Shown: piece by piece, positions 3,856-18,173 of the stretch
Layout: each line of letters begins with the position of its first letter
Position numbering within the stretch: position 1 is the first letter of the stretch
Virus record (IMG/VR): IMGVR_UViG_3300027906_000183
Coordinates: 1 to 21,087 of that record
DNA from: a virus
Direction: 5' to 3' (one strand)
Length of the DNA stretch: 21,087 nt
Translations under genes and position numbers: made by a program
The notes under the pieces: model-generated
Told to the model about the DNA's origin: nothing
Database searches by the model: none
The model's input: only the letters and a program-made list of their open reading frames with translations

Positions 3856-6009
3856 TCACGCTATCTGTCCTGCGAAGGCAGATAGCAGTCTTCTACTTGC
3901 ACCTTTACCTTTAAGAGATTTCTTAAAAGCACTGGTTAACTGACGCTTTGTGGCATCTGCAGCAACTTCCATGGTGGTCTCTTCGTTCTTACCATTGGCA
4001 ATGACATAGAGTTCAGAATATGCTGCTGTTTTTATTACAGCAAGTCTGTCTTTCTTCCATTGCTTTTTGTACTCATCTTGCTCCCAGATACCCATGCGTG
4101 ACATGTAGGATGAAAACTCTCTTGGTGGGCATAGTCTGAAACCAAGTACGTTGCACCATGTATATCTGTCTCTAATTACTCTGATTAGAGCAGCAGTCAT
4201 AGAAGGACCACCATTTTTAATGTCACTGTAGTATCTTCCAGTCTTCTTATCTCTAAGAATAGATCTGTAATTTAGATGATACTCATACGGTCTATTGATG
4301 TACTCGGTCTTTGGATGAACCTGACCAATTTGTTGTGCTTCACCATCAGTTAGAACAACTAGGTGGCACTTCTCTACACCTTGCTTTGTTTTCCACTTAG
4401 GAAGTAGATCTATACAGGTTGATAGACCTTCATTAAGTGGAGTACCACCTAGTCCTAAGAAGTGTGGGGGTGCAGGTACTCTTGCATTATCGTAACTCCA
4501 GTTGTGGTGTGCATCGAAGTACTTTGCAACTCTGAATAGATTTCTTGTCTGTCTAGTGAAGTCCTTAGCATTACCTTCACTTGTTAGGAGGTTATACATT
4601 CTGAATTTAGGATCGATCCATAGATCTAACTCTTGTTGCTTTGCAACTTTTTCTTCATCATCCATATAACCGTATCCATATGTACCCTCATGTAAGAATG
4701 CATATACATCAAATGGGATGTTAACTTTCTTACAGAACTGAGTTAGGTTGATCAATTGCTTAACAGTATCAAAGATTTCTCTACTCATGGAACCAGACCA
4801 GTCTAGTAGGAAGACAAGACCATGGTTCTTACCCTCAGGTATTGCTGTAATCTTCTTAAAGATGTCCTCAGAGAACTTATACTGATGAAGTTTAGTTGTG
4901 TCTAGTGTACCAGTCTTAGACTCAGATGATCTAGCATAAGATGTTGCTGCTTTCTTACACTCAAACTCCTTTACAAGATAGTTAACATCTTTCTGTGTGT
5001 CCTTTGACCATTGTCTGTAAAGTTCATCAACCCAATCCATTCTCTCAGGGTATTCTCTAGTCTCTTCTTTCCAGTGCTCTTCTGCTCTGTCCCAGATAGA
5101 CTTGTTATCCACGAGAACCTTATCTGAAAATACAGTAGGTACGTTAACGTATGATGGAACATGTGCATCTAGATCTGTAAGATCTTTTGCGTTATTATCA
5201 AAAGCATTCTGAGTAGTAACTTCCATGTACTCCTCTTCAGTCTGTCTTCCATAGTCAGGCAGGTCACCTGCTGCTGCATTACCACCAAACTCTTGATCTC
5301 CATCGCTATCTGAGTTACCTTCCTCATCCTCTCCTTCTATCTCTTCTCCCTGTGCATTTGGAGATGGCATTTCCTGACCATTATTATCCATTTTCTCCCC
5401 TTCACCTTGTCCTGCTTCCATCTCCAGTGAGAAGTCTGACTGTGACTCACCTTCTTCCTTCTGCTTCTTCTCAAATTCTGCTTTCATAAACTGAAATATA
5501 TCCTTAGCAACCTCTAATGCTTCTTCGAATGTTTCTGTGACCCCTGCAGCGTCTTTTAGAGGGGTCTCAGCAGCAGTAAATGGTACCATTGCGTATGAAC
5601 CAATCTTATAGTGGAGGTTGATTCTGTCTACAAGTGTCAACTCTGTAAGATCTTTGCCATTTATCTCGAAGAAATCATTATCAGTTAGTTGACTGTATGC
5701 TTTATGAAAATCCTTCTGAAGACCAGGAAACTTACGCTTCATTAACTTCTCGATACGAGCATCCTCTGTCACGTTAATGAAGGACATTGGTACTCCAAGT
5801 GTTGCAGGGTCTTCGTTAGGTGTGTATAGTGCGTGCCCAACCTCATGACCCACGAGCATATTATATACGTCATTGCTTGTCTTCCAGATTGGAAGTGTCA
5901 AAACTCTATTCTGAACATCAAAGGATGCTGTCTCCACTTTCTTGTGCTCTACAAGAAGGTTCTCAGTAGCAAGGAGTTTTGCAAGGTTTCCTTTGATCTC
6001 GATGTTCAT
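3856..6009 (-). CDS. CobT-like protein with HExxH motif and VWA domain
   Basis: 717-residue protein, presumed partner of the MoxR/CobS-like ATPase encoded next. The N-terminal domain has HEVGH (55-59), a zinc-peptidase-like HExxH, followed by NVTEDARIEK (79-88), which may supply the third metal ligand. Residues about 185-245 are very acidic and low-complexity, as in CobT. The C-terminal half is a von Willebrand A domain with MIDAS residues DWSGS (403-407), a GGTPL threonine and LTDGE. Proteolytic activity is not proven. I chose ATG 6009 because MNIEIKGNLAKLL is a natural family-like start; ATG 6042 adds 11 residues but overlaps a TATAAT box. Neither start has a good Shine-Dalgarno. CobT-type VWA proteins dock on CobS-type rings, so a metal-chelatase or protein-remodelling complex is a reasonable inference. 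Confidence 0.85.
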   Translation of the reverse strand: MNIEIKGNLAKLLATENLLVEHKKVETASFDVQNRVLTLPIWKTSNDVYNMLVGHEVGHALYTPNEDPATLGVPMSFINVTEDARIEKLMKRKFPGLQKDFHKAYSQLTDNDFFEINGKDLTELTLVDRINLHYKIGSYAMVPFTAAETPLKDAAGVTETFEEALEVAKDIFQFMKAEFEKKQKEEGESQSDFSLEMEAGQGEGEKMDNNGQEMPSPNAQGEEIEGEDEEGNSDSDGDQEFGGNAAAGDLPDYGRQTEEEYMEVTTQNAFDNNAKDLTDLDAHVPSYVNVPTVFSDKVLVDNKSIWDRAEEHWKEETREYPERMDWVDELYRQWSKDTQKDVNYLVKEFECKKAATSYARSSESKTGTLDTTKLHQYKFSEDIFKKITAIPEGKNHGLVFLLDWSGSMSREIFDTVKQLINLTQFCKKVNIPFDVYAFLHEGTYGYGYMDDEEKVAKQQELDLWIDPKFRMYNLLTSEGNAKDFTRQTRNLFRVAKYFDAHHNWSYDNARVPAPPHFLGLGGTPLNEGLSTCIDLLPKWKTKQGVEKCHLVVLTDGEAQQIGQVHPKTEYINRPYEYHLNYRSILRDKKTGRYYSDIKNGGPSMTAALIRVIRDRYTWCNVLGFRLCPPREFSSYMSRMGIWEQDEYKKQWKKDRLAVIKTAAYSELYVIANGKNEETTMEVAADATKRQLTSAFKKSLKGKGASRRLLSAFAGQIA

Positions 6010-14068: not shown

Positions 14069-14156
14069 CTGTAAGGGGTGGAGTCGAACCACCAAGTCCC
14101 GCACGCAGAACAGCAGGGAAACAGCCTGCCACGTTTACCAGTTTCGTCACCTTACA
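14069..14156 (-). tRNA. tRNA with GUU (Asn) anticodon and long variable arm
   Basis: 88 bases including the discriminator, no encoded CCA. Acceptor TGTAAGG pairs perfectly with CCTTACA. The D-arm is ACG/CGT with loop AAACTGGTAAA. Anticodon stem GCAGG/CCTGC encloses CTGTTTC, giving U33 and anticodon GUU. A 19-base variable region can form a 6-bp hairpin. The T-arm is GGTGG/CCACC with loop TTCGACT, and the discriminator is G73. The long arm and D-arm are class II features like bacterial tRNA-Leu, whereas Asn tRNAs are class I, so the identity is ambiguous. Position 37 is U, where tRNAs nearly always have a purine. It lies 8 bases after the synthetase-like stop and before a terminator, so it is probably cut out of the same transcript. 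Confidence 0.88.
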
Positions 14157-14164
14157 TTGAGGCA

Positions 14165-14956
14165 CTACTTGAGTGCCGAGATGAGACGCTGGATACCTAT
14201 ACCTCCTCCACTCCTAGGGAAGAAGTCGAACTCAAGGAATTCATCAAGTTCCTTCTCTACTCTTTCCTTACCAAACAGATCAATAATAAGTTGAGAATAC
14301 TTACCATCTGATATGGTATAGAAGGTCTCTCTCATCTGATCCTTGTCGGTACTCCTTTCAGCACTACCAATAGTTTCTTTACCACCTAAGATAACATCTA
14401 TCTTTTTACTGGTACCATCATCGTTCCGTGCCATGTTCCAGAATGGTGAGGTAAACTCAGGGAACTCAGTAATCATACCAGAACCAATTGCTAATTCATG
14501 AGCATGGTCTAGTTCTTCTGATCTAAATTCCTTACCCCATTCACCATAAGTTTTGATGGTTAGTTCAGGTAATCCCAAATATTCACACAATTCTTTCTCC
14601 ATCTCTTCGAGTTCTTTAACACCTCCCTTCATCTCAAACTCAAACATGGGGAAGATAACTTCATGTCTTCCTGGTACAGGGTTTGGTTCTGCTCTGTACG
14701 ACGTTGAGACACAGAAAAACCCCTCTGCTTTGGGGTTGGATAGTAATTCATATTCTAACCACATCTGACCTGTCTGTGGTAGTGGCCATACCTGACCATT
14801 GTAATTGTATGTTGCTACTGTCTCTGGATCTTCACAAGCAGCAAGGATACTTAAACGATTTTGGGTATGAACCTCAAGAAAATTTTTAGACAAAAAAAAT
14901 GACCTCAATAGGTCAACCACGTCGGAGTATTCTTTTGGATCAATTAGGGCTGTCAT
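14165..14956 (-). CDS. Minimal class II aminoacyl-tRNA-synthetase-like protein (AspRS/AsnRS/AsnA core)
   Basis: 263 residues, only the class II catalytic core; full AsnRS has about 430-470 and starts with an anticodon-binding OB-fold that is missing here. Motif 2 is visible as SYRAE (R88, E90) with RHEVIFPMFEFEM at 97-109. The class IIb GGKETIGSAER block is at 191-201 and motif 3 is GGGIGIQR (250-257). Compared with AspRS/AsnRS, the usual PHSG becomes PRSG and the E before the motif 3 arginine is Q, a variant also seen in asparagine synthetase AsnA. It may charge the adjacent tRNA, amidate aspartate, or aminoacylate something else; sequence alone cannot decide. The ATG at 14956 has a weak ribosome site. 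A CTAAATA box lies 21 bases upstream, and a terminator-like hairpin lies inside codons 14-22. Confidence 0.8.
   Translation of the reverse strand: MTALIDPKEYSDVVDLLRSFFLSKNFLEVHTQNRLSILAACEDPETVATYNYNGQVWPLPQTGQMWLEYELLSNPKAEGFFCVSTSYRAEPNPVPGRHEVIFPMFEFEMKGGVKELEEMEKELCEYLGLPELTIKTYGEWGKEFRSEELDHAHELAIGSGMITEFPEFTSPFWNMARNDDGTSKKIDVILGGKETIGSAERSTDKDQMRETFYTISDGKYSQLIIDLFGKERVEKELDEFLEFDFFPRSGGGIGIQRLISALK
14892..14915 (-). repeat. Terminator-like hairpin inside the synthetase-like gene
   Basis: On the minus strand TGACCT and AGGTCA form a perfect 6-bp stem around ATTG, followed by eight Ts. It resembles the intergenic terminators at 14985 and 14021 and shares a TTTAGACAAAAAAA flank (plus strand) with the former, but lies within coding sequence at about codons 14-22. 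Confidence 0.5.
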
Positions 14957-17528: not shown

Positions 17529-18173
17529 TTACAGACTTTTTAAGAATGTATCGAATGCGGAAATCTTCCTTTCAGCAATCTGATGTGCGGCTGCGTTGTT
17601 AATTCTGGACTTAATTGCGTCCAAAGTAGACTCAGCAACGTTTCCATTGTTCCAAACCCATTCTTTTCCTTCTAGGATACCTTCCACAAATGCGTCAGGT
17701 GCTGATGGATCTGCAACTATGTCAGCAGCAGTAGCTAGTACGAAGTCATCACATACTACCTTCATTCCATTTGATTCTTTAATAGAACCCAATCCCCGTG
17801 AAGAAACTCCGAGTTTAATTCCTTCATCGAGTAATTCTTTAGTCACACGTCCCATAGGGGTATCAAGTATGCGTGCCTTGCCCACAAAATTGTTACCTTC
17901 CCTCTGTAATGACGTAATCAAATGAGATACCCTATCCAAATTGATAGTTGGTCCTTCTGGATGACCGAGTTCACCCATAGCACGACCCTTCTTAACATAA
18001 CTTTCGTTATATTTCTGGACCTCTCTTCCAAGAGTATCTATAGGGTACATACGTCCATTGCGATTTTTGATCGCACCTTGTAGGAAAACACCTTCGATAT
18101 AGGTCTTGCGTTTGCTGCCTTTACCTTCGGTAATTACCTTAGTATCATGAATTGTTTCCGTTATCAGTCTCAT
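17529..18173 (-). CDS. 21: Prohead core protease gp21
   Basis: 214-residue serine protease of the herpesvirus-assemblin/T4 gp21 type that cleaves scaffold and capsid proteins at (L/I)xE sites. The catalytic histidine is H71 in MGELGHPEGPT and the nucleophile is in GVSSRGLGS (S124 or S125). The VVCDDFVLATAADIVADPSAPDAFVEG block (about 139-165) is typical of the family. A possible self-cleavage site ITE lies at residues 4-6. The ATG lies inside the acidic core gene's 3' end (29-base overlap). Located between the gp67/68-like gene and gp22 as in T4. Confidence 0.95.
   Translation of the reverse strand: MRLITETIHDTKVITEGKGSKRKTYIEGVFLQGAIKNRNGRMYPIDTLGREVQKYNESYVKKGRAMGELGHPEGPTINLDRVSHLITSLQREGNNFVGKARILDTPMGRVTKELLDEGIKLGVSSRGLGSIKESNGMKVVCDDFVLATAADIVADPSAPDAFVEGILEGKEWVWNNGNVAESTLDAIKSRINNAAAHQIAERKISAFDTFLKSL

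Follow-up and report, generated by a model that had tools for sequence, protein, structure and literature searches.

A class II-shaped tRNA with an asparagine anticodon and its link to an AsnRS-like enzyme gene in T4-like cyanophages

A class II-shaped tRNA gene behind an enzyme gene

In a T4-like cyanophage we observed a tRNA gene with a conserved cloverleaf, an anticodon and an acceptor end of the Asn type, and close linkage, seen from both sides, to a gene whose product has the fold and pocket motif of asparaginyl-tRNA synthetase (AsnRS). The explanation that we favour, with confidence that is evenly balanced, is that the two would form a dedicated Asn-tRNA/enzyme pair, in which a phage tRNA on a tRNA-Leu scaffold has been re-addressed to asparagine and acts as the partner of the enzyme encoded upstream.

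The window, by which we mean the whole stretch of 21,087 nucleotides that was analysed (IMG/VR record IMGVR_UViG_3300027906_000183), is a fragment of this phage, with the gene for the capsid protein Gp23 among those on its minus strand, next to further phage genes. At the DNA level, the named phage closest to it over this region is P-SSM7 (80.1% over 77% of the query), whose record annotates the pair as 'tRNA ligase' and 'tRNA-Asn', and P-SSM2 and P-SSM5 also carry both genes. Neither gene is therefore newly found, as both are annotated in public phage records. A search of the open-access literature, with subscription journals mostly outside it, recognised no description of the tRNA/enzyme pair, and the same search returned nothing on a class II body with Asn identity, on the two-sided linkage, on the loss of decoding hallmarks or on the pyrimidine-gene neighbours described below.

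ARAGORN finds a single tRNA in the window, at positions 14069 to 14156 on the minus strand, with anticodon GTT. This class II-shaped tRNA ends in the discriminator G73 (position 14069), and CCA is not encoded. The acceptor stem has 7 bp (UGUAAGG/CCUUACA), the D stem 3 bp (ACG/CGU), the anticodon stem 5 bp (GCAGG/CCUGC) and the T stem 5 bp (GGUGG/CCACC, with T loop UUCGACU). The anticodon loop CUGUUUC contains U33, the anticodon G34-U35-U36 (14120 to 14122) and U37 (14119), where E. coli tRNA-Asn (asnT, loop CTGTTAA) has A37; the variable arm, at 14094 to 14112, is 19 nt long. Taken alone the sequence is unremarkable: the Rfam tRNA model RF00005 did not match it at E 0.001 or better, and its folding energy is unexceptional (z -0.99; 29 of 200 shuffles equally good). 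The case for a real tRNA is a comparative one. Elsewhere in the window, positions 17780 to 17950 (minus strand) give a weak sub-threshold match to the Rfam family Bacteroidales-1 (26.5 bits against a gathering threshold of 60), which is probably due to chance.

Conservation and covariation of the tRNA

Orthologous loci numbered 88, comprising the window, 80 IMG/VR loci, three phage records and four MAG contigs, with two of them (L041 and L081) being the same phage. The anticodon loop was left free and 82 loci were parsed, the remaining six being cut by contig ends, three of them inside the tRNA. In all 82, the acceptor, anticodon and T stems are paired at 7/7, 5/5 and 5/5 positions (G-U allowed), U1-A72 and G73 are present, and the anticodon loop reads YYGUUUM in one of five versions; 57 different sequences are represented. 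A clean cloverleaf with a 19-base variable arm, a Leu-like body, GUU, G73 and U37 had been described in an earlier, sequence-only reading of this DNA, and all of these proved real and conserved, with GUU, U37, G73 and fully paired stems in every parsed orthologue. The same reading had envisaged an ordinary Leu anticodon in orthologues as the finding that would speak against it; the orthologues do not carry one, and a single locus (L304) has a tRNA-Leu(UAA) at the tRNA site, behind what appears, judged by eye, to be its own promoter.

In an alignment of 31 diverse sequences, standard pairs fill 99.5% of 730 pair cells and compensatory changes occur in every helix. Double changes numbered 169, compared with 48 in shuffles (none of 500 shuffles was as high), and sliding the partners left at most 51% paired, the structure having been derived from the same alignment, which favours the real pairing over the slid versions. 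The variable arm is also a conserved stem, with 96.4% of its cells paired. A chance match or pseudo-tRNA is ruled out by this covariation, and the class II-shaped GUU RNA is confirmed, by comparative sequence analysis, as a genuine tRNA.

With the anticodon not imposed, ARAGORN assigned Asn(GUU) to 68 of the 80 IMG/VR loci, another register to five and nothing to seven. On 60 of 71 further viral loci its assignments were mostly Asn, with Asp in three and Leu in L304, and several were missed. Among 138 unique RNAs, one has a variable region of just 6 nt, and in the remaining 137 its length ranges from 12 to 38 nt. The long arm can be lost, as phage loci L298 and L335 show: both have GUU and a D arm of the Leu type, but their variable loop is short.

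Linkage of the tRNA to the enzyme gene

The tRNA begins 8 nt after the stop codon of the enzyme gene in the window, both on the minus strand, and the median distance from that codon across loci is about 14 nt. The enzyme-tRNA cassette is present in all 82 parsed loci (of the 88), and its settings differ, being between gp23 and gp3 in P-SSM7 and beside a lipase gene in P-SSM2. The linkage was approached from both sides, using locus sets that overlap in contigs. The search that started from the enzyme recovered the RNA at 77 of 83 cyanophage loci (the other six have 0 to 95 nt downstream), at 51 of 71 further viral loci (two of the other 20 are truncated) and at 4 of 80 loci on genome contigs, those four falling with or next to phage members on the tree. 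In the search that started from the RNA, 99 of 120 loci carried the enzyme on the strand of the RNA, at an upstream distance of 26 to 251 nt. Among the other 21, the match lies within 133 nt of a contig end in 11, and ten do not fold as a tRNA (seven low-scoring and three with other spacing; ARAGORN found no tRNA in any). Within these 120 loci, every match that folds as a tRNA and lies away from a contig edge is thus accompanied by the enzyme. The tie to the neighbouring enzyme, which had been proposed from the window alone, is strongly supported by this linkage.

A perfect 6-bp hairpin (GGCACT CAAGT AGTGCC; 14161 to 14177, minus strand) spans the stop codon of the enzyme gene just 5' of the tRNA, and a perfect hairpin of at least 5 bp occupies this junction in 76 of 79 cyanophage loci. 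The hairpin arms vary between phages yet stay complementary, though they lie partly in coding sequence. A tRNA so close behind the stop codon, with a hairpin between them that could serve processing, might suggest an uncharged passenger or an element for the 3'-end or processing of the enzyme mRNA. We consider this very unlikely, because a processing signal would have no need of the anticodon, discriminator and U1-A72 conserved among the 138 unique RNAs, nor of the CCA that 70 of the 138 encode.

The enzyme does not need the tRNA, as it is found without the RNA in bacteria, huge phages and viral loci. By the pattern scan it occurs without the RNA in 22 viral loci having at least 130 nt downstream, although in one of these, L335, the scan overlooked a GUU tRNA whose variable loop is short. 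The class II GUU tRNA pattern (with Y33 fixed) is absent from the whole of the huge-phage records LR756501 (735 kb) and LR756508 (484 kb), and both records encode enzymes with about 46% identity. With U33 and GGTARAC fixed, the pattern was found in none of 25 bacterial genomes carrying the enzyme. A class II GUU partner located elsewhere in the enzyme-bearing bacterial genomes was considered and rejected on this U33-fixed count (0 of 25). The Chitinophagales MAG holding locus L092 contains an orphan class II-shaped tRNA-like gene (L369/L389) with the loop UUGUCUC; the L369 RNA has a GUC anticodon, U37, U1-A72, G73 and an encoded CCA, and is not named by ARAGORN; the 18 kb fetched around it contains nothing that matches the enzyme significantly.

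A tree was made from 156 of 211 distinct proteins, with roughly a quarter of the cyanophage rows retained; it is a quick tree with an arbitrary root and many forks open. The tRNA-bearing enzymes group on it with moderate support (3 label changes versus a shuffled mean of 21.1), and the group adjoins Pasteurella and Rhodospirillaceae proteins located beside orotate genes.

Identity positions and the Leu-like body

Base frequencies were taken from 132 RNAs from the enzyme-side scan, near-copies included. The scans behind this set and the 138 unique RNAs required G34, U35 and Y36, so that the invariance of positions 34 and 35 is built in. The 138 RNAs include loci found RNA-first, by a search pattern that fixed Y33 and U37, and that scan was for this reason excluded from the frequencies at positions 33 and 37. 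Position 73 is G in all 132 RNAs, the third anticodon base is U36 in 129 of them and C36 in three, and U1-A72 is present in 137 of the 138 unique RNAs. E. coli asnT shares U1-A72, G73 and GUU with the phage RNA and has A37 and a short variable loop. AsnRS recognises G34-U35-U36 and G73, and LeuRS requires A73.

The body of the tRNA is Leu-like in its D arm and long variable arm. The RNA covariance model R1 had matches in all 25 enzyme-bearing bacterial genomes and is thus non-specific, but 140 fetched from among the matches listed were mostly tRNA-Leu (87 Leu, 31 Ser, 15 Tyr, four ordinary Asn, one Phe, one Gln and one unnamed by ARAGORN), with no class II GUU tRNA among them. The class II tRNA-like gene L369, with its GUC anticodon, is one of these 140. 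An anticodon-switched tRNA-Leu had been one proposal of the sequence-only reading; as an origin this is supported by the R1 matches, and as an RNA charged by LeuRS it lacks support, G73 being invariant. Of the features of a tRNA-Leu, the phage RNA has the body and neither the anticodon nor A73, carrying GUU and G73 instead. The consequence drawn from that proposal, namely that host LeuRS would place Leu at Asn codons, takes its appeal from the D arm, the variable arm and the R1 matches, but the identity set at the acceptor end and in the anticodon is that of Asn (G73 in 132 of 132 and U1-A72 in 137 of 138), and in view of the dependence of LeuRS on A73 we regard this outcome as extremely improbable. 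Compared with a decoding tRNA-Asn, for which E. coli asnT is the yardstick, the window RNA has GUU and the Asn-type acceptor end (U1-A72, G73), and lacks both the short class I variable loop and the combination of U33 with a purine at 37, having U33 but U37.

The partner tRNAs of the marine phage loci L315, L323 and L325 have a GUC (Asp) anticodon in an otherwise similar cassette, and that of L348 has GUU with G37. Charging with Asp, whether the phage enzyme or a (non-discriminating) AspRS performs it, would be in keeping with the GUC found in three of the 132 relatives and with the fold common to AspRS, AsnRS and AsnA. It is nevertheless highly unlikely, given GUU in 129 of the 132 and an enzyme pocket without the lysine of the AspRS type.

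The anticodon loop and decoding

U33 and a purine at position 37 are features of decoding tRNAs, t6A37 belonging to the same background, and A33, C33 or G33 would be expected to impair decoding. In the 132 RNAs, U37 occurs in 126, G37 in four and A37 in two (a purine in just six); U33 occurs in 93, with A33 in 19, C33 in 17 and G33 in three, so that U33 is lost in 39. According to a review, position 37 is often a purine, stabilising pairing (PMC11231383). Across the family, the features read by the synthetase (GUU, G73) are kept and those facing the ribosome (U33, purine 37) are not. Because GUU and G73 persist while U33 is often lost and a purine at 37 is rare, this looks like selection for charging with Asn and weak selection for decoding. 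A non-decoding role, also raised by the sequence-only reading, gains weight from the loss of U33 in relatives, the window RNA itself having U33.

The loop could also be read in terms of translation, as a backup tRNA-Asn altered against host anticodon (or modification-dependent) nucleases, with the enzyme merely assisting its charging. The near-invariance of GUU fits such a backup, as do the U33 retained by the window RNA and the three ordinary tRNA genes (Ile, Arg and Leu) just upstream of the enzyme in P-SSM7 and L068. The loop does differ from that of a cellular tRNA in having U37 for A37, the yardstick being E. coli asnT and not the tRNA of the host, and some members, having C33, no longer carry the UGU motif that the queuosine enzyme reads. 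On the other hand, A33, C33 or G33 in 39 of 132 relatives should impair decoding, a Leu-type body is unnecessary for evasion, and a backup needs no tie to one enzyme gene, whereas, away from contig edges, every copy of this RNA that was seen had the enzyme beside it. Even with a published precedent for nuclease-evading loop changes in phage tRNAs (PMC10264068), we give the backup a limited chance, well short of an even one.

The AsnRS-like enzyme

The gene at 14165 to 14956 (minus strand) encodes 263 aa with the class IIb catalytic domain of an AsnRS-like protein and no anticodon-binding domain. It belongs to the class II synthetases D, K and N in Pfam (PF00152) and to a PHROG family of unknown function (phrog_29758). 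The AlphaFold model (pLDDT 93.0, pTM 0.90) has human AsnRS 8h53 as its top predicted structural match (Z 26.1, rmsd 2.2, 240 aligned), with AspRS (Z 25.2) and archaeal AsnA (Z 23.8) appearing nearly as good, and the best PDB profile match is AsnRS 2xgt (E 1.6e-12). Residues 1-263 align to the catalytic part alone (e.g. residues 230-528 of human AsnRS). Among the features of an asparagine--tRNA ligase, the N-terminal OB domain is absent and the class IIb core and AsnRS-type pocket motif are present. The pocket motif QTGQMWLE aligns with QSSQLYLE of AsnRS and QSPQLYKQ of AspRS; its L-E is invariant in 67 members, and the AspRS-type lysine is missing. Where the aligned AsnRS has EGG, the loop reads ILAACEDP in 134 of 156 members, with close variants in the rest. 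The enzyme scores 20.8 bits with TIGR00457 (asparagine--tRNA ligase; cut-off 342.6) and 18.5 bits with NF005055 (asparagine synthetase A, NCBIfam; cut-off 389). Having no anticodon domain and falling far below the AsnRS cut-off, it is not filed as an AsnRS.

Mean net charge is -19 in tRNA-bearing members and -11 in tRNA-less bacterial ones. Since 64 alignment columns show at least 98% identity across tRNA-bearing phage and tRNA-less bacterial enzymes, both groups may run the same reaction, which is not necessarily aminoacylation. The enzymes of L290, L292, L293, L300 and L315 have a C-terminal tail like YxxRxIVANM, absent from the cyanophage members inspected.

If the two genes form a dedicated pair, the RNA would be charged with Asn, possibly by either of two routes. 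The phage enzyme, having no anticodon domain, might charge it through the acceptor end and body, or host AsnRS might do so through G34-U35-U36 and G73, with the phage enzyme then acting on the Asn-tRNA. The missing anticodon domain and the strong negative charge argue for charging by the host, and the AsnRS-like pocket for charging by the phage enzyme. Given the family-wide loss of U33 and purine 37, at least part of the use of the RNA would probably be off the ribosome, and off-ribosome use of the pair is a serious possibility, while the window tRNA, which keeps U33, might still decode AAC and AAU. Several points speak against a dedicated pair. The enzyme is without the OB domain that reads Asn anticodons, the tRNA-bearing enzymes are very acidic, which does not favour RNA binding, the structural matches to AspRS and archaeal AsnA are almost as good as those to AsnRS, and the enzyme occurs without the tRNA. 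The chemistry, which the tRNA-bearing and bacterial enzymes may share, need not be aminoacylation.

Bacterial relatives and pyrimidine genes

The bacterial relatives of the enzyme are mostly 51-63% identical (loci on genome contigs such as L091, L099, L112, L130, L136, L151, L152 and L164). A pyrD-, pyrE- or pyrF-like ORF is present in the fetched stretch of 23 of the 76 tRNA-less genome loci, a count for which there is no background rate to compare. NCBIfam cut-offs are passed by pyrF and pyrD of L130 and by pyrE of L112; a fourth reference ORF (L130, 4413-4889) is phosphoribosyltransferase-like only. Among 158 viral loci, the enzyme has a pyrE-like neighbour no more than about 2 kb away in four (L030, L040, L044 and L069), the one in L030 passing the pyrE cut-off. 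Two others (L349 and L351) have, within the same distance, a phosphoribosyltransferase-like ORF that no family model names as PyrE. PyrE identity for the L130 ORF at 4413-4889 and for the L351 ORF was rejected, as no PyrE model matched them. These neighbours at tRNA-less loci suggest that the enzyme is not simply an AsnRS, and the family is possibly a new pyrimidine enzyme.

We compared 25 enzyme-bearing bacterial genomes, many of them MAGs or small genomes, with 14 controls, none of which has the enzyme family. The ATCase cut-off is passed in 3 of 25 versus 14 of 14 controls, that of CarB in 4 of 25 versus 14 of 14, and that of dihydroorotase in 3 of 25 versus 11 of 14 with TIGR00857 (PyrC) and 0 of 25 versus 1 of 14 with TIGR00856. 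Weaker matches occur in the 25 genomes for ATCase (6), CarB (19) and PyrC (TIGR00857; 11). The canonical AsnRS cut-off is passed in 13 of the 25. In the Pasteurellaceae, none of 101 genomes sampled passes the ATCase cut-off and three have the enzyme, so the absence of ATCase there is uninformative on the enzyme. Mutual exclusion of the enzyme and ATCase within this family accordingly found no support, the absence being family-wide.

These data raise the idea of Asn-tRNA as an off-ribosome carrier, the dedicated substrate of an upstream enzyme whose family serves pyrimidine synthesis. One speculative route would run from Asn, bicarbonate and ATP to dihydroorotate, Asn holding N1, C6, C5, C4 and N3 of the ring. 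The neighbours at the 23 of 76 genome loci (again with no background rate) and at the 4 of 158 viral loci favour the idea, as does the contrast between 3, 4 and 3 of 25 genomes passing the ATCase, CarB and PyrC cut-offs and 14, 14 and 11 of 14 controls; the loss of U33 and purine 37 would hold the RNA off the ribosome. However, the absence of such a tRNA from bacterial members means that the core reaction can do without it, and an AsnRS-type pocket suggests activation of the alpha-carboxyl, which is of no use in pyrimidine synthesis. The weaker ATCase, CarB and PyrC matches, in genomes many of which are MAGs or small, and the absence of ATCase from Pasteurellaceae independently of the enzyme, also weigh against it, and we consider the carrier role unlikely. 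The fuller proposal, in which a leucine-shaped, Asn-charged tRNA, barred from the ribosome by its loop (U37, often with a base other than U at 33), would be a dedicated substrate or cofactor of a pyrimidine-feeding enzyme whose tRNA-less bacterial forms bypass CarAB-PyrB-PyrC, we consider slightly less probable again.

Significance

Should the dedicated pair charge Asn, many marine phages would carry a compact, naturally occurring synthetase-tRNA pair whose tRNA body is unusual and which could find use as an orthogonal pair. It is directly testable, since the cultured phages P-SSM2 and P-SSM7 carry it. Should the RNA not be used in decoding, it would represent a viral tRNA dedicated to metabolism. 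In either case attention is drawn to a bacterial AsnRS-like enzyme that is often near pyrimidine genes.

Comparison with known systems

Canonical tRNA-Asn(GUU), as in E. coli asnT, resembles the phage RNA in GUU, U1-A72, G73 and a 7-nt anticodon loop; the phage RNA differs in its class II arm, Leu-like D arm and U37, in the frequent loss of U33 in relatives and in its link to an enzyme. With bacterial tRNA-Leu it shares the D arm, the long variable arm and the 3-bp D stem, and it departs from tRNA-Leu in GUU, G73 and U1-A72. The phage enzyme is like AsnRS (class IIb) in its predicted catalytic fold (Z 26.1) and its Q-x-x-Q-x-x-L-E motif, but unlike AsnRS it has no OB domain, has SILAACEDP where AsnRS has EGG, and reaches 20.8 of 342.6 bits. 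The archaeal AsnA/AsnS-like proteins (3rex/3p8t; Z 23.8 to 3rex), HisZ and EpmA consist of the catalytic domain alone, as the phage enzyme does, and two papers offer synthetase paralogs in amino-acid biosynthesis as a precedent (PMC9437257, PMC7373986). In contrast with AsnA and the free-standing paralogs, this enzyme family is linked to a tRNA in its phage members, and in bacteria its genes often have orotate genes nearby. Finally, an altered anticodon loop is common to the phage RNA and to nuclease-evading phage tRNAs (PMC10264068), whereas the RNA described here has a different type of body and a close coupling to one enzyme gene.
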